This document shows positions 48,688-59,683 of a stretch of DNA of 64,000 bases, piece after piece. Source of the stretch: Roseovarius sp. (GTDB taxonomy: Bacteria > Pseudomonadota > Alphaproteobacteria > Rhodobacterales > Rhodobacteraceae); NCBI GenBank assembly GCA_014359765.1, contig JACIYT010000002.1:1-64000 (forward strand). The letters are read 5' to 3'. A model generated the notes under the pieces. It saw nothing but the letters and a program-made list of their open reading frames with translations. It searched no databases and was not told where the DNA came from. A program made the translations under genes and the position numbers. Numbering within the stretch: the first letter of the stretch is position 1; the number at the start of each line of letters is the position of its first letter.

Positions 48688-49833
48688 TCACATCGCCGCG
48701 CGAAAGAGACGGTCGAGGGCTTCCCTTGTCAGGGGCACCGGGTTGCCGCCGCAGGACGGATCGGTGATGGCGCCCTGCACCAGATCGGGGATCGCCGCCT
48801 CGGTCACGCCGAGTGCGGCCAGCCCGCGGGGGATCCCGAGACTGTCGTTGAAGTCCTGCACAAAGGCGCGGAACCCGTCGAAGCCGCCCGCAATGCCCAG
48901 ATAGGCCGCCGCCCGGTCAAATCGGTCGCGGATCGCGCCCGCGTTGAAATCGAGCACGGCGGGCATGCAGACCGCGTTCGTGGTGCCGTGATGGGTGTTG
49001 AAACGGGCGCCCACCGGGTGGCTCATGGCATGGATCGCGCCAAGCCCCTTCTGGAACGCCGTCGCGCCCATGGCCGCCGCGCTCATCATCTGCGCGCGCG
49101 CCTCGATATCGCTGCCGTCGGCATAGGCGCGCGGCAGGTTCTCGATCACCAGCCGCATCCCTTCAAGCGCTATCCCGGCGCTCATCGGGTGGTAATGGGG
49201 CGAGGAAAACGCCTCGACGCAATGGGCAAAGGCGTCGAGCCCGGTGCCGGCGGTGATCGCGCGCGGCATTCCCACGGTCAGTTCCGGGTCGCAGATCACC
49301 ACCGTGGGCAGCATCCTGGGGTGAAAGATGATCTTCTTGGCATGGCTGACCGAATCGGTGATGACGCTTGCGCGCCCGACCTCGGACCCGGTTCCGGCGG
49401 TGGTGGGCACGGCGATGATGGGGGCGATGGCCTCCGAACTGGCGCGCGTCCACCAATCGCCCACATCCTCGAAATCCCACACAGGCCGCGTCTGGCCGGC
49501 CATGAAGGCCACGCATTTGCCAAGATCGAGCCCCGAGCCGCCGCCGAAGGCGATCACCCCGTCATGCCCGCCCGCCTTGAAGGCGGCGACACCGGCGGCA
49601 AGGTTCACCTCGTCGGGATTGGGATCGACCTCGGCGAAAAGCCCCGGCTCCAGCCCCGCCGCGCGCAGGATATCGAGCGCGCGCGCGGTGATCGGCAGGG
49701 GGGCAAGCCCCCGGTCGGTGATCAGCAGGGGCCGGGTGATCCCCGCCTGCGCGCAGGCGGCGGGCAGTTCCGCGATGCGGCCTGCCCCGAACCTGATCGC
49801 GGTCGGATAGGACCAGTTGGCGATGAGCGTCAT
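48688..49833 (-). CDS. Iron-containing alcohol dehydrogenase
   Basis: 381-residue NAD(P)-dependent group III dehydrogenase. GGGSGLDLGKCVAFM and VPTTAGTGSEVGRASV bind the nucleotide; the iron ligands lie in GTGLDAFAHCVEAFSS and HAMSHPVGARFNTHHG. ATG at 49833 with GAAGG upstream; the track start at 50157 runs through the aldehyde dehydrogenase relic. Its ATGA overlap with that relic's stop shows the two were once translated together. Substrate unknown; see the findings for a proposed amino-alcohol pathway. Confidence 0.9.
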   Translation of the reverse strand: MTLIANWSYPTAIRFGAGRIAELPAACAQAGITRPLLITDRGLAPLPITARALDILRAAGLEPGLFAEVDPNPDEVNLAAGVAAFKAGGHDGVIAFGGGSGLDLGKCVAFMAGQTRPVWDFEDVGDWWTRASSEAIAPIIAVPTTAGTGSEVGRASVITDSVSHAKKIIFHPRMLPTVVICDPELTVGMPRAITAGTGLDAFAHCVEAFSSPHYHPMSAGIALEGMRLVIENLPRAYADGSDIEARAQMMSAAAMGATAFQKGLGAIHAMSHPVGARFNTHHGTTNAVCMPAVLDFNAGAIRDRFDRAAAYLGIAGGFDGFRAFVQDFNDSLGIPRGLAALGVTEAAIPDLVQGAITDPSCGGNPVPLTREALDRLFRAAM

Positions 49834-50069
49834 GACGTGACCTTCTCGATGTGACAGGATTTCGTACGGGTGAGGTTGTGATGGCCGATGATCGGGAGCG
49901 CGCCGCCGCGCCCGGTCTGCTGGCCGCCGGTCCGGCACAGGCCCGGGTCGGGGTAATCGGCGCGGTTCATGCGGACGGTGCCGGTCTCGATCGCATCCCC
50001 CACCCGCACCGCGCGCGCCACATCGGCGGTCCGGAGCGAGGCGGTGAGGGCGAAGGGGCTGTCCTTCAC
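49830..50069 (-). pseudogene. Aldehyde dehydrogenase C-terminal relic
   Basis: About 79 codons in frame with the track ORF 49830-50795 match the end of NAD-dependent aldehyde dehydrogenases: VKDSPFALTASLRTADVARA, AIETGTVRMNRADYPDPGL, GRGGALPIIGHHNLTRTKS. The catalytic Cys/Glu core and NAD-binding domain are gone; the sequence upstream to the glutamine-synthetase stop (50070-50182) is not recognisable. Altered positions (for example CRTGGQQTGRG where W-TG--D-GRG is usual) suggest it is drifting. Its stop still overlaps the FeADH start as ATGA. Confidence 0.75.
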
Positions 50070-50182
50070 GCGACGGGTCGTCTTTTCGCCGAACCCGATA
50101 TCGCAAGGCGCGCCCCTTGCGCGTGGGCGGCGCGCCCGTTGCTTCATCTTTCCACAAATACTCATATCCGGCCTTGCCGCCC

Positions 50183-51544
50183 TCATGCCCGCTCGAAACC
50201 GCGCGCGATCTCGTAATCGGTCACGGCGCGGTCGAAATCCTCCTGCTCGACCTCGGCGGCACGGGTATAATGATCGACCACCCCATCGCCGAAGGCGCTG
50301 CGCAGCATGGTGGAGTGGCGAAATGCCTCCGTGGCCCGCGCCAGCGTGCGCGGCATGTCGCTCACATCCGCCATGCCATAGACATCGCCGCGCACCGGCT
50401 CGGGCAGGTCCAGCCCCTCCTCGATCCCCGCCAGCCCCGCCGCAAGCTGGCCGGCACAGGCGAGATAGGGGTTCATGTCCGAGCCGGGGATGCGGCATTC
50501 GATGCGCACGGCGCTGGTGCCCTCGCCGACGAGGCGAAAGCCGGCGGTGCGGTTGTCGATCGACCAGGCCACCTTGGTCGGCGCAAAGGTGCCCGGCACG
50601 AAACGCTTGTAGCTGTTGATACAGGGCGCCATCAGCAACATGCAGTCGGGCGCGTATTTCAGCAGCCCCGCCACATAGTGCCGCATCAGCGCCGACATGC
50701 CATGCGCGGCGCCCGCCTCGTGAAAGCCGTTCGCGCCGTCGCGAAACAGCGACTGGTGGATATGGGCGGCGCTGCCGACCCGGCGCGCGTGCCATTTGGG
50801 CAGGAAGGTCGCGGCATGGCCTTTCTGCGCGGCGATCTCCTTGATCGTGTGCTTGGCCAGCGTGTGCCGATCGCAGGCGGAGACCGCATCGCCGTAGCGG
50901 ATATTGAGCTCTTCCTGCCCGGCCTCGGCCTCGCCCTTCGAGTTCTCCACAGGGATGCCCATGGCAAAGAGCGCGTTGCGCACCGGACGCAGCACATGCT
51001 CGTCGCGGGTCGAGAACTGGATCGAGTAATCCTGGTTGTATTTCACCAGCGGGTCGAGCGCGCGAAAGCCGCTCTCGCGGATCGCGTCATAGCTGCGCTC
51101 GAAGAGAAAGAATTCCAGCTCGGTCGCCATCATCGGCGTCAGGCCCATGGCCTCGGCGCGGGCCACCTGCGCCTTGAGGATCTGGCGCGGGCTGTGCGGC
51201 ACCGGCGCATGGCTGTGGTGATCGAGGAAATCGCACAGCACCAGCGCCGTGCCCTCCAGCCAGGGCACCGGGCAGAGCGTCGCGAGGTCGGGCTTCATCG
51301 TGTAATCGCCATAGCCCGCTGCCCAGCTTGTCGCGGCATAGCCGTCGGGCGTGGCCATTTCCAGATCGGTGGCCAGCAGGTAATTGCAGCAATGGGTTTC
51401 CACATGCCCGCTTTCGAGGAAATTGGCGACGTGGAAGCGTTTGCCGACAAGGCGGCCCTGCATGTCCACGGCGCAGGCCAGAACGGTGTCGATCTCGCCG
51501 CTGTCGGCCTTGATCCTGAGGGCATCGAGAGTGAGGGCTGTCAT
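50183..51544 (-). CDS. Glutamine-synthetase-family gamma-glutamyl ligase
   Basis: 453 residues. The N-terminal beta-grasp half has DMQGRLVGKRF; the catalytic half shows ATELEFFLF (metal glutamate), AAHIHQSLF, NSYKRFVPGTFAPTKVAWSIDNRTAGFR and AVRIECRIPGSDMNPYLA. This is the pattern of PuuA/GlnA3/GlnA4/IpuC-type ligases that join glutamate to amines rather than ammonia. It has none of the adenylylation-site context of GlnA. Located between a TRAP transporter and dehydrogenase genes, it probably activates an imported amine. Confidence 0.85.
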   Translation of the reverse strand: MTALTLDALRIKADSGEIDTVLACAVDMQGRLVGKRFHVANFLESGHVETHCCNYLLATDLEMATPDGYAATSWAAGYGDYTMKPDLATLCPVPWLEGTALVLCDFLDHHSHAPVPHSPRQILKAQVARAEAMGLTPMMATELEFFLFERSYDAIRESGFRALDPLVKYNQDYSIQFSTRDEHVLRPVRNALFAMGIPVENSKGEAEAGQEELNIRYGDAVSACDRHTLAKHTIKEIAAQKGHAATFLPKWHARRVGSAAHIHQSLFRDGANGFHEAGAAHGMSALMRHYVAGLLKYAPDCMLLMAPCINSYKRFVPGTFAPTKVAWSIDNRTAGFRLVGEGTSAVRIECRIPGSDMNPYLACAGQLAAGLAGIEEGLDLPEPVRGDVYGMADVSDMPRTLARATEAFRHSTMLRSAFGDGVVDHYTRAAEVEQEDFDRAVTDYEIARGFERA

Positions 51545-51568
51545 GGTCTTGTGCTCCGGTGGGGCTTG

Positions 51569-51599
51569 GGAAGGGGGCCCGGCGCGCCGGCCCCCTTCC
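51569..51599 (-). promoter_or_regulatory. Strong intercistronic hairpin after dctP
   Basis: GGAAGGGGGCC and GGCCCCCTTCC form a perfect 11-bp stem around CGGCGCGCC, itself largely self-complementary. It lies 19 bases past the dctP stop and 25 before the ligase start. There is no T-run. Such hairpins protect the mRNA of binding-protein genes and reduce expression of what follows. Confidence 0.65.
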
Positions 51600-51617
51600 T
51601 GCGTTTCATGCGCGGTC

Positions 51618-52655
51618 TCAGCCGTTGGTATAGGGCGGGCCGGCCTGGTTGATGACCTCGTTATACTCGCGGAAGATGCCGACGATCTTCTGCTCGATTT
51701 CGCCTTCCTGCGCCACCTCGTTCCAGAAATCCTTGGCGGCGTTTTCCACCTCGGCCCATTCCTCGGCGGGCACGGTGCGCAGTTCCAGCTTGTCGCCGCG
51801 CGCCCTGAGCCGCGCCTCGCCGCCCCAATACCACTGGTTGCGATAGGTGTGGCTGGCCTCGGTCGCGGCCATCACCAGCTGCTTGAGATGGTCGGGCAGG
51901 TCGTTCCACTGGCGCTGGTTGACGAACCACGACCCGATCCAGGCACCCGAGATGTTGTTGGTCAGGAAATAGTCGGTCACATTCGCCCAGCCCACCGTGT
52001 AATCCTCGGTGATCCCCGACCAGGCCATGCCGTCAAGCTCGCCGGTCTGCACCGCGACCTCGGCATCCTCGTAGGGGATGTTCACCGGCACCACGCCGAA
52101 TTTCGCCAGGAACCGCCCCGCCGTCGGGAAGGTATAGAGCTTGAGCCCGTCGAGATCGGCGACCGACCTGATTTCCTTCCTGGTGTTGAAGTTGCACGGA
52201 TCCTGCCCCGCGGCCGAGATCCATTGCACGCCGACCTTGGCGTATTCCTCGCGCCATATATCGGCGAGGCCATACTGGTTGAAGAGCACGGGCACGTCGA
52301 GGATATGCTTGGTGGCGAAGGGGAAATAGCCGCCGAACTGCCGCAGCGGCGTGGGCGAGGCCATCGAATCGTCGTCTGAGTGCACCGCGTCGATGGTGCC
52401 GCGCTGAAGCGCCTGGAAGAGCTCGCCGGTGGGCACGATCTGATCGGCATAGAAGAGCTCGATCTCCATCTCGCCATTGGCCGCCTTGTTGACGTAATCG
52501 ACCATGGGCTTGGTCACATGCTCGCCCAGCGCGCCGCCGGCATAGGTCTGCATCCGCCAGCGGATCGGGGCCTGGGCCTTGACGATGGCGGGGCTGGCGA
52601 GCGTCGCCGCAGCACCCACCCCGGCGGTGGTGAGAAACTTTCTTCGGGTGGTCAT
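51618..52655 (-). CDS. dctP: TRAP transporter substrate-binding protein DctP (TakP-like)
   Basis: 345-residue periplasmic receptor with a Tat-type signal (TTRRKFLTTAGVGAAATLAS, cleavage after VKAQ). The body has DDDSMASPTPL, FPTAGRFLAKFGVVP, WSGITEDYTVGWANVTDYFL and SWFVNQRQWNDLP, very like the TakP-type subgroup that binds 2-oxo acids in Rhodobacter. The true ligand may differ given the island context. It follows dctM by 66 bases. Confidence 0.9.
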   Translation of the reverse strand: MTTRRKFLTTAGVGAAATLASPAIVKAQAPIRWRMQTYAGGALGEHVTKPMVDYVNKAANGEMEIELFYADQIVPTGELFQALQRGTIDAVHSDDDSMASPTPLRQFGGYFPFATKHILDVPVLFNQYGLADIWREEYAKVGVQWISAAGQDPCNFNTRKEIRSVADLDGLKLYTFPTAGRFLAKFGVVPVNIPYEDAEVAVQTGELDGMAWSGITEDYTVGWANVTDYFLTNNISGAWIGSWFVNQRQWNDLPDHLKQLVMAATEASHTYRNQWYWGGEARLRARGDKLELRTVPAEEWAEVENAAKDFWNEVAQEGEIEQKIVGIFREYNEVINQAGPPYTNG

Positions 52656-52721
52656 GTCGTCGTCCTCCTGCTGTTTGCTCGAATGGATCTGCTCCCTTGG
52701 CGGAGTTCTGGGGTTATCGCG

Positions 52722-54044
52722 TCATCCATAGACCAGCCGTGGCAGCCACAGCGCGATCTGCGGAAAGGCCATCACCAGCGCCAGCGCCACCGCCATCACC
52801 AGCACGAAAGGCAGGATCGAGCGGTAGATGTCGCGCAGGGTGATCTCGGGCGGGGCCATGGCCCGCATCAGAAACAGGTTGTAGCCGAAGGGCGGCGTCA
52901 TGTAGGCGATCTGCGTGGTGATCGTGTAGAGGACGCCATACCAGATCAGATCGAAGCCGAGCGCGCCCACAAGCGGCACATAGAGCGGCGCCACGATCAC
53001 CAGCATCGCCGTGTCGTCGAGAAACGTGCCCATGACGATGAAGCTGAGCTGCATCAGGATCAGGATCAGCCAGGGATCGAGGCCGAGCCTCCGTGTAAAG
53101 AGACTGTCGATCGCCTTGACCGCGCCCAGCCCGTCGAACACCGCGCCAAAGGCCAGCGCCGCGAGGATGATCCACATGAACATGCACGAGATCCCCAGCG
53201 TCATGCGCACCGAGGTCTCGAACACGGCGCGCGTCATCCGCCCCTTGATCACGGCGGCCATGAAGGCCGTCATCGCGCCGATGGCCGAGCTTTCGACCAG
53301 CGAGGTCCAGCCGTTGACGAAGGGCACCATCATCGCCGCGAAGATGAAGAGCGGCAAGAGCCCCGCGCGCAACAGCCGCAGCTTCTCGCGCATCGGCATG
53401 GTGCGTTCCTCGGGTGGCAGCACCGGGCCGAGCTGCGGCCGGAGGCGGCAGCGCAGCCAGATATAGAGGATGAAGAGCGCCGCCATCATCAGCCCCGGAA
53501 CGATCCCGGCAAGCCAGAGCTGCCCCACCGGCTGGCGCGCGATCATCGCATAGAGCACCAGCACCACCGAGGGCGGCACCAGGATCCCGAGGCTCGATCC
53601 GGCCTGAATGACGCCTGTCACCATGATCTTGTCATAGCCGCGGCGCAGCAGTTCGGGCAGCGCGATCGTCGCCCCGATCGCCATGCCCGCCACCGAAAGC
53701 CCGTTCATCGCCGAGACGAGCACCATCAGCCCGATCGTGCCGATGGCCAGCCCGCCCGGCACCGGCCCCATCCAGACGTGAAACATCCGGTAAAGGTCAT
53801 CGGCGATGCGGCTCTCGCTCATGACATAGCCCATGAAGATGAACATCGGCAGCGTCAGCAGCGGATACCATTTCATCAGCTTGATCGCCGAGGCAAAGGC
53901 GATGTCGAACCCGCCCCTGTCCCCCCAGAGCATCAGCGCGGCGATGACCGCGACAAAGCCGATCGCCCCGAACACGCGCTGCCCGGTGAACAGCATCGCC
54001 ATCATGGTCGCGAACATGAAGAGCGCGATCATCTCATGGGACAT
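52722..54044 (-). CDS. dctM: TRAP transporter large permease DctM
   Basis: 440 residues with about 12 membrane segments. Typical stretches: FGAIGFVAVIAALMLWG, GTIGLMVLVSAMNGLSVAGMAIGATIALPELLRRGYD and VPPSVVLVLYAMIARQPVGQLW, and a C-terminal GTFLDDTAMLVIVAPLYVPL. It carries Na+-coupled transport together with DctQ and DctP. It overlaps dctQ by 11 bases. Confidence 0.93.
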   Translation of the reverse strand: MSHEMIALFMFATMMAMLFTGQRVFGAIGFVAVIAALMLWGDRGGFDIAFASAIKLMKWYPLLTLPMFIFMGYVMSESRIADDLYRMFHVWMGPVPGGLAIGTIGLMVLVSAMNGLSVAGMAIGATIALPELLRRGYDKIMVTGVIQAGSSLGILVPPSVVLVLYAMIARQPVGQLWLAGIVPGLMMAALFILYIWLRCRLRPQLGPVLPPEERTMPMREKLRLLRAGLLPLFIFAAMMVPFVNGWTSLVESSAIGAMTAFMAAVIKGRMTRAVFETSVRMTLGISCMFMWIILAALAFGAVFDGLGAVKAIDSLFTRRLGLDPWLILILMQLSFIVMGTFLDDTAMLVIVAPLYVPLVGALGFDLIWYGVLYTITTQIAYMTPPFGYNLFLMRAMAPPEITLRDIYRSILPFVLVMAVALALVMAFPQIALWLPRLVYG

Positions 54045-54642
54045 CGGCGGTCTCCTCTCCGCGCAGGCGCAGGATGTCGCGGCAAAGCTCGGCCACCGCC
54101 TGCAACAGCATGAGGAAAACGCCGAAGACGAGGATCGTCTTGATCGGCCAGATCACCGGGCGCCACACGGTCGAACTGCGCTCCAGAACCCCGGTCATCT
54201 CCGCCACTCCCGCGCGCCCCTCGGTCACGAAGCTGCGCAGCAGGTCCCGGAAAAACACCAGCGGCTCGGTGCCGAAATAGCCCAGCGAATAGGCGGTGGA
54301 ACTGATCCCGCCATAGAGCAGAACGCCCAGGTAGAAGAGCAGGAAGAACACCGTGACGGCATCGACCATGGCGCGCTTGCGGGCCGACCACTCGCCGTAA
54401 AAGAGATCCATCCGCACATGCGATCCCATCTGGATCGAATAAGGTCCGCCCAGAACGTAATAGGCTACCATCACGAATTGCGCCGTCTCCAGCGTCCAGA
54501 GCGCGGGGCTGAGGAAGGTCTTGGAGAGCGAGGACCACAGCAGCACCCCCATCAACGCGAAGATGAGATACATGGCGATACGCCCGATAAAGCGGTTCAT
54601 CCGGTCGATGGCCCCGATGTAGCCGCGCATGAGATCACGCAT
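54034..54642 (-). CDS. dctQ: TRAP transporter small permease DctQ
   Basis: 202 residues with four membrane helices and the family region WTLETAQFVMVAYYVLGGPYSIQMGSHVRMDLFYGEWSARKRAMVD. Start at 54642 (MRDLMRGYIGAIDRMN) overlaps the amidohydrolase stop by 8 bases and has GAGG six bases upstream; 54630 is possible. The track start at 54777 lies inside the neighbouring gene. Works with DctM and DctP. Confidence 0.88.
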   Translation of the reverse strand: MRDLMRGYIGAIDRMNRFIGRIAMYLIFALMGVLLWSSLSKTFLSPALWTLETAQFVMVAYYVLGGPYSIQMGSHVRMDLFYGEWSARKRAMVDAVTVFFLLFYLGVLLYGGISSTAYSLGYFGTEPLVFFRDLLRSFVTEGRAGVAEMTGVLERSSTVWRPVIWPIKTILVFGVFLMLLQAVAELCRDILRLRGEETADVP

Positions 54643-55399
54643 CCTGCGCCTCCCCGAGGCCGAGCGCGGCCAGCGCCGGGCGCAGCAGCGTGAGGATCTC
54701 CTCCGCCCGCGCGCGCTGGGCCGCGGGGGTTGCCAGAAGGTCCTGCCGCACCTCCAGCATGACATTGGGCAGGCCATTCGCCAGCCCGTGCCGCCGCAGC
54801 GTGTGGGTCACGCCGTCCTGTGGCCCGTAGGGCGCATTGCGCACGATACGGCGGTCGGTCAGGGCAGGGGCGCGGGCCAGCATCAGATCGGCAAGCCGCG
54901 CGTCGGCGTCGTGCAGGATGCCGATTTCCACCGCGCGCGGGGCCCCGAACCAGATGGGCGAGAAACTGTGCACCGTCACCAGCGCCACCGGCACCTTGCG
55001 CGCCGCGATCATCGCGGCGAGCGCCTCGGTGAACGGCTCGTAAACCGCTCTGGCGCGCGCCGCGCGGGCCGGCGCGTCGAGGCCCCGGTTGCCCGGCACC
55101 TCGATGGTCTCGCTCCGCTCGGGCATGGCCGACGGCGCCTCGGGCGGGCGATTGCAATCATAGACAAGCCGCGAGACGCGGCCCGCGACCAGCGGCGCGT
55201 CGAGCGCCTGCACGAGGTGCCGCGCCAGCGGCTCGGCGCCGGGGTCCCAGGCCGCGTGGCTTTGCCGCGCCGCCGCGTCGAGCCCGAGGCCGCGATAGGC
55301 GTCGGGGATGTGGTTCGAGGCGTGTTCGCAGACGAGAATCACCGCGCCGCGCCCATCCGGGTTCACGATTGCCACCGGGTTTCTGTCGATCTCGGTCAT
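54635..55399 (-). CDS. N-formylglutamate amidohydrolase-like protein
   Basis: 254 residues from ATG 55399 (MTEIDRNPVAIVNPDG). The FGase motifs are VILVCEHASNHIP (about 22-34), HAAWDPGAEPLARHL, SRLVYDCNRPPEAPSAMPE and TVHSFSPIWFG. The family hydrolyses N-formylglutamate in histidine breakdown, but no hut genes are near. In this operon it may cleave a gamma-glutamyl or other amide made by the ligase at 50183. First gene of the TRAP operon, divergent from rpiR. Confidence 0.85.
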   Translation of the reverse strand: MTEIDRNPVAIVNPDGRGAVILVCEHASNHIPDAYRGLGLDAAARQSHAAWDPGAEPLARHLVQALDAPLVAGRVSRLVYDCNRPPEAPSAMPERSETIEVPGNRGLDAPARAARARAVYEPFTEALAAMIAARKVPVALVTVHSFSPIWFGAPRAVEIGILHDADARLADLMLARAPALTDRRIVRNAPYGPQDGVTHTLRRHGLANGLPNVMLEVRQDLLATPAAQRARAEEILTLLRPALAALGLGEAQDA

Positions 55400-55414
55400 G
55401 CGTGCCTCTCGCGT

Positions 55415-55430
55415 TGGAAAAAGCTTTCCA
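55415..55430. promoter_or_regulatory. Palindromic operator TGGAAA-N4-TTTCCA
   Basis: Perfect 6-base arms with spacer AAGC lie in the 130-base space between the amidohydrolase and rpiR starts. A half-site TTTTCCA recurs at 55455-55461. GAAA/TTTC dyads are common for RpiR-type regulators, so this is the likely binding site of the adjacent gene product. Confidence 0.55.
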
Positions 55431-55529
55431 TGCCGAATGATTTTCGTCAATATTTTTCCAGACATGCCGTCGCGGTGCCGCCCCGTCGCGGCGCGGCTGC
55501 CGCGAAATCCATCATCGGAGGCTCGCCCC

Positions 55530-56426
55530 GTGCCTGACCGCGCGCCCGAACCCACGCCCCAGACCGCCGCGGCCCCCACCGTGCGCCAGCTCATCCGCCG
55601 GCATTATGCTGCGCTGACGCAGTCCGAGCGCCGTTTCGCCAACGCGCTGCTGGAGAATTACCCCGGCGCGGGGCTTGCCTCGATCACCGCCGCCGCCGAG
55701 GGCGCGGGTGTCTCGGCCCCGGTGGTGGCGCGGCTGGTGCAAAAGCTCGGCTTCAAGGGCTATCCGCAATTCCATCAGGCGCTGCTGGCCGAGCTTCAGG
55801 CCAAGGTCTCGGGGCCTGCTGCGCGGCGCGCGGTCTGGGCCGCCGAGGCGCCGTCTTCGCATCTGCTCAACCGGTTCGCCGCCGCCGTCACCCAGAACCT
55901 CGCCCAGACCTTCGCCAATATCGACACCGCCCAGTTCGACGCGGCGGCGCGCGCGCTGGCCACCGCGCCGGGGCTCTATGTCGTGGGGGGGCGCATCACC
56001 CGGTCGCTGGCCGAATACGCCTTTACCCATTTTCAGGCGATCCGCGACGGAGTGCGCCATCTCTCGGCCGCGCCGGCAAGCTGGCCGCAATACGTGATCG
56101 ACATGGGTGCGGGCGATGCGCTTCTGATCTTCGACATGCGCCGCTACGAGGACAACCTGCTGCGCCTTGCGCGCATCGCCGCCGAGCGCGGGGTGCGCGT
56201 GATCCTCGTCACCGACCAATGGGCCAGCCCGGTCGCGGGCGTGGCCGAGATCACCTTCAACTGCTGGGGCGAGATCCCCTCGGCCTGGGACAGCAATATC
56301 GCCACGCTGTCGCTGGTCGAATCGCTCATCGCGGCCACCCAGGAGGAGCGCTGGCCCGATGCGCGCGACCGTTTCGAGCGGCTCGACCGGCTGTTCGAGA
56401 TGATCCGCCTCTTCCGCGATCCCTGA
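55530..56426 (+). CDS. MurR/RpiR family transcriptional regulator
   Basis: 298 residues. GTG at 55530 has CGGAGG nine bases before it and starts MPDRAPEPT; ATG at 55464 is less likely. The N-terminal HTH_6 domain covers about residues 15-90 (QSERRFANALLENYPGAGLASITAAAEGAGVSAPVVARLVQKLGFKGY). The C-terminal SIS-type domain (GLYVVGGRITRSLAEYAFTHFQ) would bind the pathway ligand. Divergent from the TRAP/ligase operon, which it probably controls. Confidence 0.88.
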   Translation: MPDRAPEPTPQTAAAPTVRQLIRRHYAALTQSERRFANALLENYPGAGLASITAAAEGAGVSAPVVARLVQKLGFKGYPQFHQALLAELQAKVSGPAARRAVWAAEAPSSHLLNRFAAAVTQNLAQTFANIDTAQFDAAARALATAPGLYVVGGRITRSLAEYAFTHFQAIRDGVRHLSAAPASWPQYVIDMGAGDALLIFDMRRYEDNLLRLARIAAERGVRVILVTDQWASPVAGVAEITFNCWGEIPSAWDSNIATLSLVESLIAATQEERWPDARDRFERLDRLFEMIRLFRDP

Positions 56427-56442: not shown

Positions 56443-57174
56443 TCACATATATCCCCGCACGAGGCTTGCCGCGATCAGCGACCAGCCGTCGGCGATCACG
56501 AAGAACGCCAGCTTGAACGGCAGCGAGACGATGGCGGGCGGCACCATCATCATGCCCATCGACATGAGCACCGCCGCAATCACCAGGTCGATGATCAGGA
56601 ACGGGAGGAAGATCAGGAACCCCACCTGGAACGCGCGCGCGATCTCCGAGAGCATGAAGCTCGGCACCAGCACCGAGAGCGGCGCGTCCGGGCCGGGGGG
56701 GATGGCCGCGGCATCCGGGCGCAGCGCGGCCATGGCGGCGAAGGTCTCGCCGTCGATCCGCGCCGCCATGAATCCGCGAAACGGCTCGATCGCCCGCGCC
56801 AGCCCCTCGGTCAGCTCCACCTCCTCGGCCACCAGCGGCGCGATGCCCTGGTCCCAGGCGGCGGTGAATGTCGGCTCCATCACGAACCAGGTCAGGAACA
56901 GCGCAAGGCTCACCAGCAGCATGTTGGGCGGCGATTGTTGCAGGCCGATCCCCTGGCGCAGGATCGACAGCACGGTGATGATGAACGGAAAGGCGGTGAT
57001 CATGATCGCCAGCCCCGGCGCGAGGCTCAGCACCGTGATCAGCGCGATGAGCTGCACCGTGCGCGCCGAGATCGACCCGCCCTCACCGAGCGAGATCGAC
57101 AGCTCCTGCGCGGCGACCGGCCATGGCAGCGTGACCAGCACCAGCGCCACGATGAGGGCGCGCATCCAGCTCAA
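56443..57174 (-). CDS. fliP: Flagellar export protein FliP
   Basis: 243 residues with a cleavable signal (ending VAAQ) and four membrane segments. Family motifs: TVQLIALITVLSLAPGLAIMITAFPFIITVLSILRQGIG and FLIFLPFLIIDLVIAAVLMSMGMMMVPP. It is a core subunit of the FliPQR export gate. It overlaps fliN by 4 bases and is the last gene of the fliF-fliH-fliN-fliP unit; fliQ and fliR are not in the window. Confidence 0.96.
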   Translation of the reverse strand: MSWMRALIVALVLVTLPWPVAAQELSISLGEGGSISARTVQLIALITVLSLAPGLAIMITAFPFIITVLSILRQGIGLQQSPPNMLLVSLALFLTWFVMEPTFTAAWDQGIAPLVAEEVELTEGLARAIEPFRGFMAARIDGETFAAMAALRPDAAAIPPGPDAPLSVLVPSFMLSEIARAFQVGFLIFLPFLIIDLVIAAVLMSMGMMMVPPAIVSLPFKLAFFVIADGWSLIAASLVRGYM

Positions 57175-57467
57175 GCGAGCCCGTCCCGGAGATCGGCGAC
57201 CTCGGTCAGACGCACCGCGAGCTGCCCCTGCGCGTCGCCCTCGATCTCCTCGAGCTGGCCGCGCGCGATCATCCGCTCGCCGATATAGAGCTCGACCGCG
57301 TCATCGACCCGGCGATCGAGCGCGAGCACCGTATCCCGACCCATCCGGAGCAGGTCCCGGATCAGCGGGCGGGCACGGCCGACGCAGACGGTGATCTCGA
57401 TGGGGACGCCCGAGAACGGGCTCTCGGTCCCGGCGGTTGCGGGGGCGCGGTCGGTGGTGTCGGTCAT
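57171..57467 (-). CDS. fliN: Flagellar motor switch protein FliN
   Basis: 98 residues, a single SpoA domain: VPIEITVCVGRARPLIRDLLRMGRDTVLALDRRVDDAVELYIGERMIARGQLEEI. It forms the C-ring with FliM and FliG. Overlaps fliH and fliP by 4 bases each, so the four genes are translationally chained. Confidence 0.92.
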   Translation of the reverse strand: MTDTTDRAPATAGTESPFSGVPIEITVCVGRARPLIRDLLRMGRDTVLALDRRVDDAVELYIGERMIARGQLEEIEGDAQGQLAVRLTEVADLRDGLA

Positions 57468-58051
57468 GCGATGGCCTTTCCTTCTGGTTGCGCGTCGAAA
57501 AAGCCGCTCACGGCGGCGGTGATGCCCGCGAGAACCTCGGGCAGGTCGATTTCGGCCTCGCTCTCGCCGAAGCGCAGATAGACCTGCCCGGCACCGAGCG
57601 TGTCATCGGCGACCAGGCGCAGCTCCAGCCCACCATCGGCGAGGTGCTCGAGGCGCGGGAGGTCCTCGGGCGCGGCGGCGATCTCGATCGGCTGGCGGCC
57701 AAGCGCGCGGGCGTGATCGTGCAGCATCTCGGCGATGCGCGGCGCGAGGCTCTCCCTGGCCATCTGCGGCAGCACGGATGCCGTCATCTCGGTCAGCAGA
57801 GGGCGCAGCGCCGCCATCACCGCGCTGTAGGCTTCCTCGTAGGTGAAGCGCAGATCCTGAAGGTTCTGGGCCAGATCGGCGGTGATTCGGTGCCCCTCTT
57901 CCGATTGCGCCCGGACCGCGTCATCCCAGCCCGCCTGATAGCCCTTCTCGAAGGCGGCGAGGCGTTCTTCCTCCAGCGCGACATCGGTCATGGCGCGTTC
58001 CGTGCCCTCCCCGGCATCGCCGAATTCCTCGAGAAGATGGGCGATCGACAT
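57464..58051 (-). CDS. fliH: FliH-like flagellar assembly protein
   Basis: 195 residues from ATG 58051 (MSIAHLLEEFGDAGEGTE), after GAGGAGGAG. The N-terminal helix region (AFEKGYQAGWDDAV) and a C-terminal domain (ELRLVADDTLGAGQVYLRFGESEAEIDLPEVL) fit the FliH/SctL family, whose members restrain the FliI ATPase. The sequence is divergent, so the call rests partly on the position between fliF and fliN. Its start shares one base with the fliF stop. Confidence 0.75.
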   Translation of the reverse strand: MSIAHLLEEFGDAGEGTERAMTDVALEEERLAAFEKGYQAGWDDAVRAQSEEGHRITADLAQNLQDLRFTYEEAYSAVMAALRPLLTEMTASVLPQMARESLAPRIAEMLHDHARALGRQPIEIAAAPEDLPRLEHLADGGLELRLVADDTLGAGQVYLRFGESEAEIDLPEVLAGITAAVSGFFDAQPEGKAIA

Positions 58052-59622
58052 CAGACCCGCTCCTCCTCGCCCTCGAGCCATGTGCGCAGGATCTCCACGG
58101 TTTCCTCCTGGCGTTCGCCGATCAGCGCGCGCAGCCGCGCCACCGGGTCATCGGGGCGCGCCGGCCCGTCGGACCAGGAGCCGATCGCGTCCTGCCCTTC
58201 CGTGACCATCGCGAGCGCGGGCTCGTCGAACGCCCCGGTCTCGATCTCGCCGGTCAGCGCCTCCTCTGCCTCGCCCCCCGGAGGCGGGGGGATCTGCGCG
58301 GGCGCCGCCGGTGCGGGGCGCATCAGCACCGGCCGCAACACGAACAGCCCGAGCACCAGCGCGACAATCGCCAGCACCGCCGCCTGCACAAGCGCCATCG
58401 TGTCGAGCGCCAGCCTGTCCAGCAGGCCGGGCGTGGCCAGCGTGCCCTCGGGCACGATCGTCTCGAAGGGCAGCGCCCGGAGCGTCAGCACGTCGCCGCG
58501 CGTCTCGTCGAAGCCCACAGCCGACCCGACCAGATCGCGCAGCGCCGCCAGTTCCTCGTCCGGGCGGGGATCGCCCCCCCCGGGCAGGGCGTTCACCAGA
58601 ACGGCCACGCTCATTCGCCGGATCGCGCCGGGGCCGCGCAGGATCTCGCGCTCGGTCGAGGAGACCTCGTAGTTCACCCGCTCGCGAAGCTCGTCGCTGC
58701 GGCTGCTGGATGGCGCGCCCCCGGCGCCGTCGCCCTCGGGCAGGTTCGAGGCCACGGTGACGCTGCCGCCCTGATCCGAGGAATTCCGGCTGTTCTCCTC
58801 GGTGTCGGTGCTGATGGCCACGCGGCTTTCCGGGTCGAGCCGCCGCTCGCGAATCGATTCGGTCTCGGTCACGGTGTCGAGCGTCACCTCCACCACTGCA
58901 TTGCCGCGTCCGACGCGGGCCTCCAGCAGCCGCAGCGCCCGCAGCCGCAGCGCCTCGGCGCGGTCGTCGGGGGCGTTCGCGGGGGCTTCCTCGGCGCCGA
59001 GAAGCCCGCCTTCCGAATCGATCACGGCCACGTCCTCGGGCAAGAGCCCCGCGACCGCGGACGCCACCAGGAACTGGAGGGCGCGCGCATGTCCCGGCGA
59101 GAGGCCCGCGCCCCTCGTCGTCACCGAGACCGAGGCGGATTGCCGGGTGTTTCGCTGGAACGGGGCGGCGCCGCCGGAGGCGAGATGAACCCGCGCGGCG
59201 ACGATCTGGGGGTGGGCCAGGATGGTGCGCGCGAGCTCACCTTCCTTGGCGCGCCAGTAGGCGGCGTCGAACATCTGCGATGTGGTGCCGAACCCCGACA
59301 GCCCGTCGAGGATCTCGTATCCGCGTGCCGTGCCCGAGGGCAGCCCCTCGCCGGCGAGCACCATGCGCAGACTGTCGCGTTGCGCGCTTGCCACATAGAT
59401 CGCGTCGCCGCGCACCTCATGGGCGATGCCCCGCTGTTCGAGCGCGGCCACCACCTCGCCGGCTGCGGCGCCTTCGAGCCCGGCATAGAGCAGGCTCATG
59501 CCGGGGTTCGCGGCGAGGCGCGCGAGGCCCAGAACGGCCAGGAACACGCCGACCGTTGCCGCGGCCACGATCGCGCGCCGGCGCATGTCGAGCGATTGCC
59601 AGAGGGTAAGGAACTGTTGCAC
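58051..59622 (-). CDS. fliF: Flagellar MS-ring protein FliF
   Basis: 523 residues. GTG at 59622 (MQQFLTLWQSLDMRRR) has GGGAG eight bases before it; the ATG at 59670 in the track lacks one. Membrane helix at about 17-37, the YscJ/FliF domain with MSLLYAGLE, GTARGYEILDGLSGFGTTSQMFDAAYWRAKEGELARTI, a beta-collar domain, a second helix (about 410-430) and the C-terminal FliG-binding segment (RLRALIGERQEETVEILRTWLEGE). It is the base on which the motor and export gate assemble. Confidence 0.93.
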   Translation of the reverse strand: MQQFLTLWQSLDMRRRAIVAAATVGVFLAVLGLARLAANPGMSLLYAGLEGAAAGEVVAALEQRGIAHEVRGDAIYVASAQRDSLRMVLAGEGLPSGTARGYEILDGLSGFGTTSQMFDAAYWRAKEGELARTILAHPQIVAARVHLASGGAAPFQRNTRQSASVSVTTRGAGLSPGHARALQFLVASAVAGLLPEDVAVIDSEGGLLGAEEAPANAPDDRAEALRLRALRLLEARVGRGNAVVEVTLDTVTETESIRERRLDPESRVAISTDTEENSRNSSDQGGSVTVASNLPEGDGAGGAPSSSRSDELRERVNYEVSSTEREILRGPGAIRRMSVAVLVNALPGGGDPRPDEELAALRDLVGSAVGFDETRGDVLTLRALPFETIVPEGTLATPGLLDRLALDTMALVQAAVLAIVALVLGLFVLRPVLMRPAPAAPAQIPPPPGGEAEEALTGEIETGAFDEPALAMVTEGQDAIGSWSDGPARPDDPVARLRALIGERQEETVEILRTWLEGEEERV

Positions 59623-59683
59623 GTCGATATCTCCCGGTGATCGGCCTTCTGCCGGTCCTCGGGTCATCATTGACGGATGGGGC

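Follow-up and report, generated by a model that had tools for sequence, protein, structure and literature searches.

Described systems for the gamma-glutamylation of ethanolamine

The operon of Phaeobacter sp. MED193 (MED193_10021-10056) encodes an RpiR regulator, the gamma-glutamylglycine amidohydrolase (GGAH), the TRAP transporter EtoVWX, the ethanolamine gamma-glutamylase (ETAGA), an aldehyde dehydrogenase (ALDH), which acts as the gamma-glutamyl-aldehyde dehydrogenase (GAADDH), and an alcohol dehydrogenase, the gamma-glutamylethanolamide dehydrogenase (GETADH) (Westermann et al. 2023, PMC10132767). Several of the operon proteins rise on phosphorylethanolamine, recombinant EtoX binds ethanolamine with a Kd of 7.9 uM, the enzyme of the alcohol step is named as a dehydrogenase only, and prior work on Chromohalobacter salexigens and Agrobacterium is cited in the same paper (PMC10132767). 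In Streptomyces, an enzyme of the FGase family has been predicted for gamma-glutamylglycine, and the ligase GlnA4 carries F331 at the position of E327 of glutamine synthetase (GS) (PMC6529630). An arginine at the position of SiaP Arg-147 is found in 96.8% of the wider TRAP receptor family (PMC4646407), while Csal_0678 of C. salexigens has no Arg-147 equivalent and binds ethanolamine (PMC4646407); its structures, 4UAB and 4XF5, are attributed to Vetting et al. 2015 (PMC4646407, PMC5812351).

Organization and conservation of the Roseovarius locus

The analysed window, i.e., the whole stretch of 64,000 nucleotides, comprises the positions 1-64,000 of the contig JACIYT010000002.1 of Roseovarius sp. 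(GCA_014359765.1; a 2.65 Mb draft genome in 41 contigs), with the island studied at 48688-56426. The RpiR-family regulator (about 55464-56426, plus strand, with a predicted start codon; HTH_6 domain PF01418, 5.1e-14, and SIS domain PF01380, 2e-16) is divergent from a minus-strand operon, in which follow, in the order away from the regulator, an FGase-family amidohydrolase as the putative GGAH counterpart (54635-55399; PF05013, 1.9e-41; PDB 2odf, Atu2144, 4.6e-72), the small TRAP permease DctQ as the counterpart of EtoV (54034-54639; PF04290, 5.5e-16; its start deduced from the overlap with the FGase gene and from the relatives), the large permease DctM as that of EtoW (52722-54044; PF06808, 2.9e-65), the substrate-binding protein DctP as that of EtoX (51618-52655), a GS-fold ligase of 453 aa as that of ETAGA (50183-51544; PF00120, Gln-synt_C, 1.2e-98), a relic of the ALDH gene (about 49836-50072) and an iron-type alcohol dehydrogenase, FeADH, of 381 aa as the counterpart of GETADH (48688-49833; PF00465, 6.8e-48; PF25137, 1e-42). 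The FeADH end was at first placed at 50157 and was corrected to 49833, where its ATG lies. The island directly adjoins flagellar genes, FliP-like and FliF-like by the reading of their translations (56443-59670).

All the genes listed in the earlier note were found, with the families as named there, by profile matches, and its assignment of the ligase, FeADH, ALDH, FGase-type hydrolase and TRAP importer to the steps of a route coincides with that published for MED193. Every gene of the order RpiR/GGAH-EtoVWX-ETAGA-ALDH-ADH is in place, with ALDH as a relic only. The island is, with good probability, a copy of the aerobic operon described for ethanolamine gamma-glutamylation in Rhodobacteraceae, one that has lost its dedicated ALDH by deletion. 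However, the use of a TRAP transporter and an FGase-fold hydrolase, regarded in that note as new to such a route, is already published for the MED193 operon (PMC10132767), and the FGase-family enzyme was predicted in Streptomyces as well (PMC6529630). Compared with MED193, the set of gene families is the same, whereas in the Roseovarius window ALDH is deleted and the receptor belongs to the type designated below as Y. The GlnA4 route of Streptomyces coelicolor (PMC6529630) has in common with the window the four-step logic, the ligase with Phe for E327 and the predicted FGase-family hydrolase; its cluster, however, contains a short-chain dehydrogenase in place of FeADH, and another transporter and regulator.

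By this assignment, ethanolamine or a closely related amino alcohol would enter through the DctQMP system and be joined to glutamate by the GS-fold ligase with the use of ATP, FeADH would convert the alcohol to gamma-glutamyl-aminoacetaldehyde, the linked ALDH of the relatives would convert the aldehyde to gamma-glutamylglycine, and the FGase-family enzyme would release glycine and glutamate from it, with the operon expression presumably controlled by RpiR. Each of these catalytic steps in the present strain is predicted from sequence, as is ethanolamine, rather than a similar amine, as the substrate. Glutamylation reportedly precedes oxidation, as proposed here, in the ipu isopropylamine route of Pseudomonas sp. 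KIE171, for which the genes differ.

The nearest relatives of the operon belong to Roseovarius and allied Rhodobacteraceae, the closest locus being L065 of Roseovarius sp. SP300. The gene order is complete in 79 loci out of the 97 relatives scored, a set in which three are duplicate records of the same genomes, and the order is thus far beyond chance. The ligase was found in 89 of 150 other genera of the family, 80 of these 89 having ALDH, which adjoins the ligase in 78. Thus, the neighbours, whose failure to co-occur elsewhere would have spoken against the pathway, were found together in about 80 genera. As for the alcohol step, the conserved operons of the scored relatives carry the FeADH, and the window enzyme is 57-90% identical to those at the equivalent operon position.

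The divergent promoter region contains an imperfect inverted repeat, TGGAAAAAGCTTTCCA (55415-55430), and TCAATATTTTTCCA (55447-55460), each single-copy in the window, and near-identical in the loci L065, L047, L067 and L071. This region (55415-55460) is a candidate RpiR operator and operon promoter. Beside TGGAAAAAGCTTTCCA, there is also the half-site TTTTTCCA, conserved among close relatives.

The ligase

The ligase scores 241 and 244 bits against the NCBIfam models of GlnA and type III GS, and 219 bits against the PuuA model NF045547, whose cut-off is 650. It matches PDB 5dm3 (E=7.6e-200), which we take to be a C. salexigens protein. In the alignment to the GlnA of the same genome, the equivalents of E129, E131, E212, E220, H269 and E357 (the metal-site glutamates and histidine) are kept, S53 is lost, the DGSS loop is not kept, and the E327 equivalent is Phe. 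The numbering of E327 and D50 was taken from the GlnA4 paper (PMC6529630).

An alternative, in which the ligase would be a usual glutamine synthetase dependent on ammonia and the cluster would have no relation to amine glutamylation, would agree with the presence of the Gln-synt_C domain and with the 241-244 bits against the GlnA and type III GS models. However, these scores are far under the respective cut-offs of 429 and 470 bits, a canonical GlnA that retains FDGSS and E327 is encoded separately on contig 4, and Phe occupies the E327 position in 90 of 90 relatives with a readable motif, so that this explanation is very improbable. The formation of glutamine from ammonia, considered in the earlier note as fatal to the pathway, therefore appears unlikely, the residues for ammonium use being absent from the ligase as far as the sequence allows such a judgement. 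On contig 38 of the same Roseovarius genome (L045:6317-9742), two more GS-like ligase genes lie side by side, followed by an apparent FAD oxidoreductase; this pair possibly represents another glutamylation cluster.

Two types of the DctP receptor

The window DctP matches PDB 4uab/4xf5 with E=3.7e-145, the next match being at 6.1e-21, and is 63.9% identical to 4UAB (Csal_0678), the closest solved receptor. Both are without Arg at the 147 position, where Tyr174 of the window DctP stands against Phe in 4UAB; this absence fits a non-carboxylate ligand in both types of receptor into which the relatives are divided. The DctP groups are separated by a clear gap: the 37 Y-type loci share 76-95% identity with the window and the 51 F-type loci 61-67%, and the two types differ at 27 nearly fixed sites, one of which is the Arg-147 position (Tyr in the Y-type, Phe in the F-type). 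Csal_0678 is of the F-type (76-88% identity of 4UAB to the F-type group and 64% to the window), and thus differs from the Y-type receptor of the window by the 27 type differences. We know of no Y-type DctP with an assayed ligand.

All the genes other than dctP have about equal mean identity to the window in the Y-type and F-type operons, and the receptor type switches 13 times over the ligase tree, which is a quick tree. Both facts argue that dctP alone has been exchanged between the operons (loci L047-L143), and that both receptor types would feed the same enzymes. The existence of two discrete receptor types and this exchange go beyond the cited papers. A mosaic origin of the window, considered on account of the identity of 64% for dctP and 91% for GS to L064, was rejected, since the similarity to L065 is high throughout the operon (dctP 95%, GS 89%, FeADH 90%); the dctP mismatch would thus reflect a type exchange, not a chimera. 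No link of the receptor type with the ALDH loss was seen, the numbers being small.

Because the window DctP is of the Y-type and the proven ethanolamine receptor Csal_0678 of the F-type, ethanolamine is a likely, but not certain, substrate in this Roseovarius. The Y-type receptor might instead import another amine or amino alcohol to be processed by the same enzymes, as the 27 nearly fixed differences, the Arg-147 position among them, and the lack of a known assayed ligand would allow; with only dctP differing between the otherwise alike operons, and its type so often changed on the ligase tree, such a substrate seems rather unlikely.

Deletion of the aldehyde dehydrogenase gene

The stretch of 289 bp that includes the relic and the FeADH start is 87.9% identical in DNA to the intact ALDH-FeADH region of L065, in which the distance from GS to FeADH is 1458 bp versus about 350 here, with about 1.1 kb missing. 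The window retains the GS-ALDH spacer as far as approximately the beginning of ALDH, followed by the last 79 ALDH codons, whose translation has 71% amino acid identity to the intact G033 ALDH at residues 380-458. An ALDH ortholog was not found elsewhere in the assembly, the highest identity of any other ALDH being about 33%; PF00171 has nine matches genome-wide, two of them being the relic and a fragment on contig 14, and none is an ortholog. The contig-14 fragment was rejected as the missing piece, being a different C-terminal remnant. Among the five full-length ALDHs typed, two are nearest to succinate-semialdehyde dehydrogenase, one to MMSDH, and two are of uncertain class. Any of these could in principle stand in for the lost one, and the sequence singles out none.

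An assembly error or a chimeric join could be thought of in a draft genome of 41 contigs. However, the relic has diverged neutrally, with about 20 nonsynonymous changes per 79 codons here against 0-2 on the sister branch, as a falsely joined fragment would not, and because of this divergence of its own we hold a false join to be scarcely credible.

Consequently, the four-step route proposed in the earlier note (glutamylation, two oxidations and hydrolysis) agrees in outline with the published operon but is not runnable from this operon alone, since its ALDH is deleted and an ortholog was not found in the assembly. For the same reason, the operon is classed as a broken variant of the Eto operon rather than as a complete member. 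The ALDH step would here be performed by an unlinked ALDH, for which candidates exist, or would be lost.

Constraint on the remaining genes

The ALDH relic evolves neutrally, its pN/pS on the window branch being 1.0-1.45, in comparison with 0.14-0.34 for FGase, DctQ, DctM and GS (p=0.0001 and 0.001 for the relic versus the rest with two outgroups). For FeADH, the values are 0.30-0.62 on the window branch (0.30 with L067 as the outgroup) versus 0.05-0.16 on the branch of L065 (p=0.06), which hints at a relaxed constraint and would fit a decaying pathway.

Thus, a serious rival reading is that the pathway is dead or dying, the ALDH deletion having ended the use of the substrate and the other genes persisting since the loss is fairly recent. 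The loss of ALDH with no ortholog found, the somewhat raised FeADH ratio, and another ALDH-less operon, that of G032 (L049:1313-6071), in which dctP is frameshifted and the reading frame of the regulator truncated, agree with it. However, all seven other genes are open, four of them are constrained while the relic is neutral, and in the ALDH-less operons L108 and L128 the other genes are open, too, so that we consider decay possible but doubtful. The continued function of the operon with the use of an unlinked ALDH is favoured because the rest of the operon is constrained.

Recurrent absence of ALDH among relatives

Five more loci without ALDH, with a GS-FeADH gap of 41-65 bp, were revealed (L049, L071, L108, L128 and L077), and an ALDH ortholog elsewhere in their genomes was not found. 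Roseovarius sp. TE539 is an example of a strain naturally without this ALDH. ALDH is absent in nine of the 89 ligase-bearing genera, in seven of which GS adjoins FeADH. In one of these seven, represented by G191 (L159:7549-7821), a second relic, of the first 89 ALDH codons, lies between GS and FeADH, and dctQMP is present. Bare GS-FeADH pairs, with neither ALDH nor TRAP and FGase genes and with unrelated neighbours, occur in L152, L153, L155, L156, L158, L160 and L077. The ligase tree requires at least nine changes of the ALDH state, as a parsimony minimum on the quick tree with the divergent long-branch rows included, and for some of the pairs the absence of ALDH may be the ancestral state and not a loss. 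The recurrence of both the ALDH-less operons and the bare GS-FeADH pairs goes beyond the cited papers.

Several loci deviate in other ways. In L077, a nitrilase-like gene is close to the GS-FeADH pair; in L142, the loss is opposite, with ALDH kept and FeADH undetected within the 17 kb fetched; and the decay in G032 is more advanced, the dctP and regulator lesions adding to the ALDH absence.

Significance for the ethanolamine-utilizing Rhodobacteraceae

The pathway type is already known, and it is the ALDH loss and the Y-type receptor that distinguish this copy. In ocean metagenomes, EtoX genes have been taken as a marker for the uptake of ethanolamine (PMC10132767). If the Y-type receptor binds something else, or if many operons are without ALDH, the counts of ethanolamine users would be off. 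As a tentative view, less probable than its converse, the family may hold a recurrent ALDH-free form of the operon, in which the aldehyde is passed to unlinked enzymes or has another fate, together with a receptor swap between types differing in ligand or affinity, so that one enzyme set would serve more than one amino alcohol. The repeated loss of a single step beside the neighbours that are kept offers a natural test of which steps may be replaced by an unlinked enzyme.
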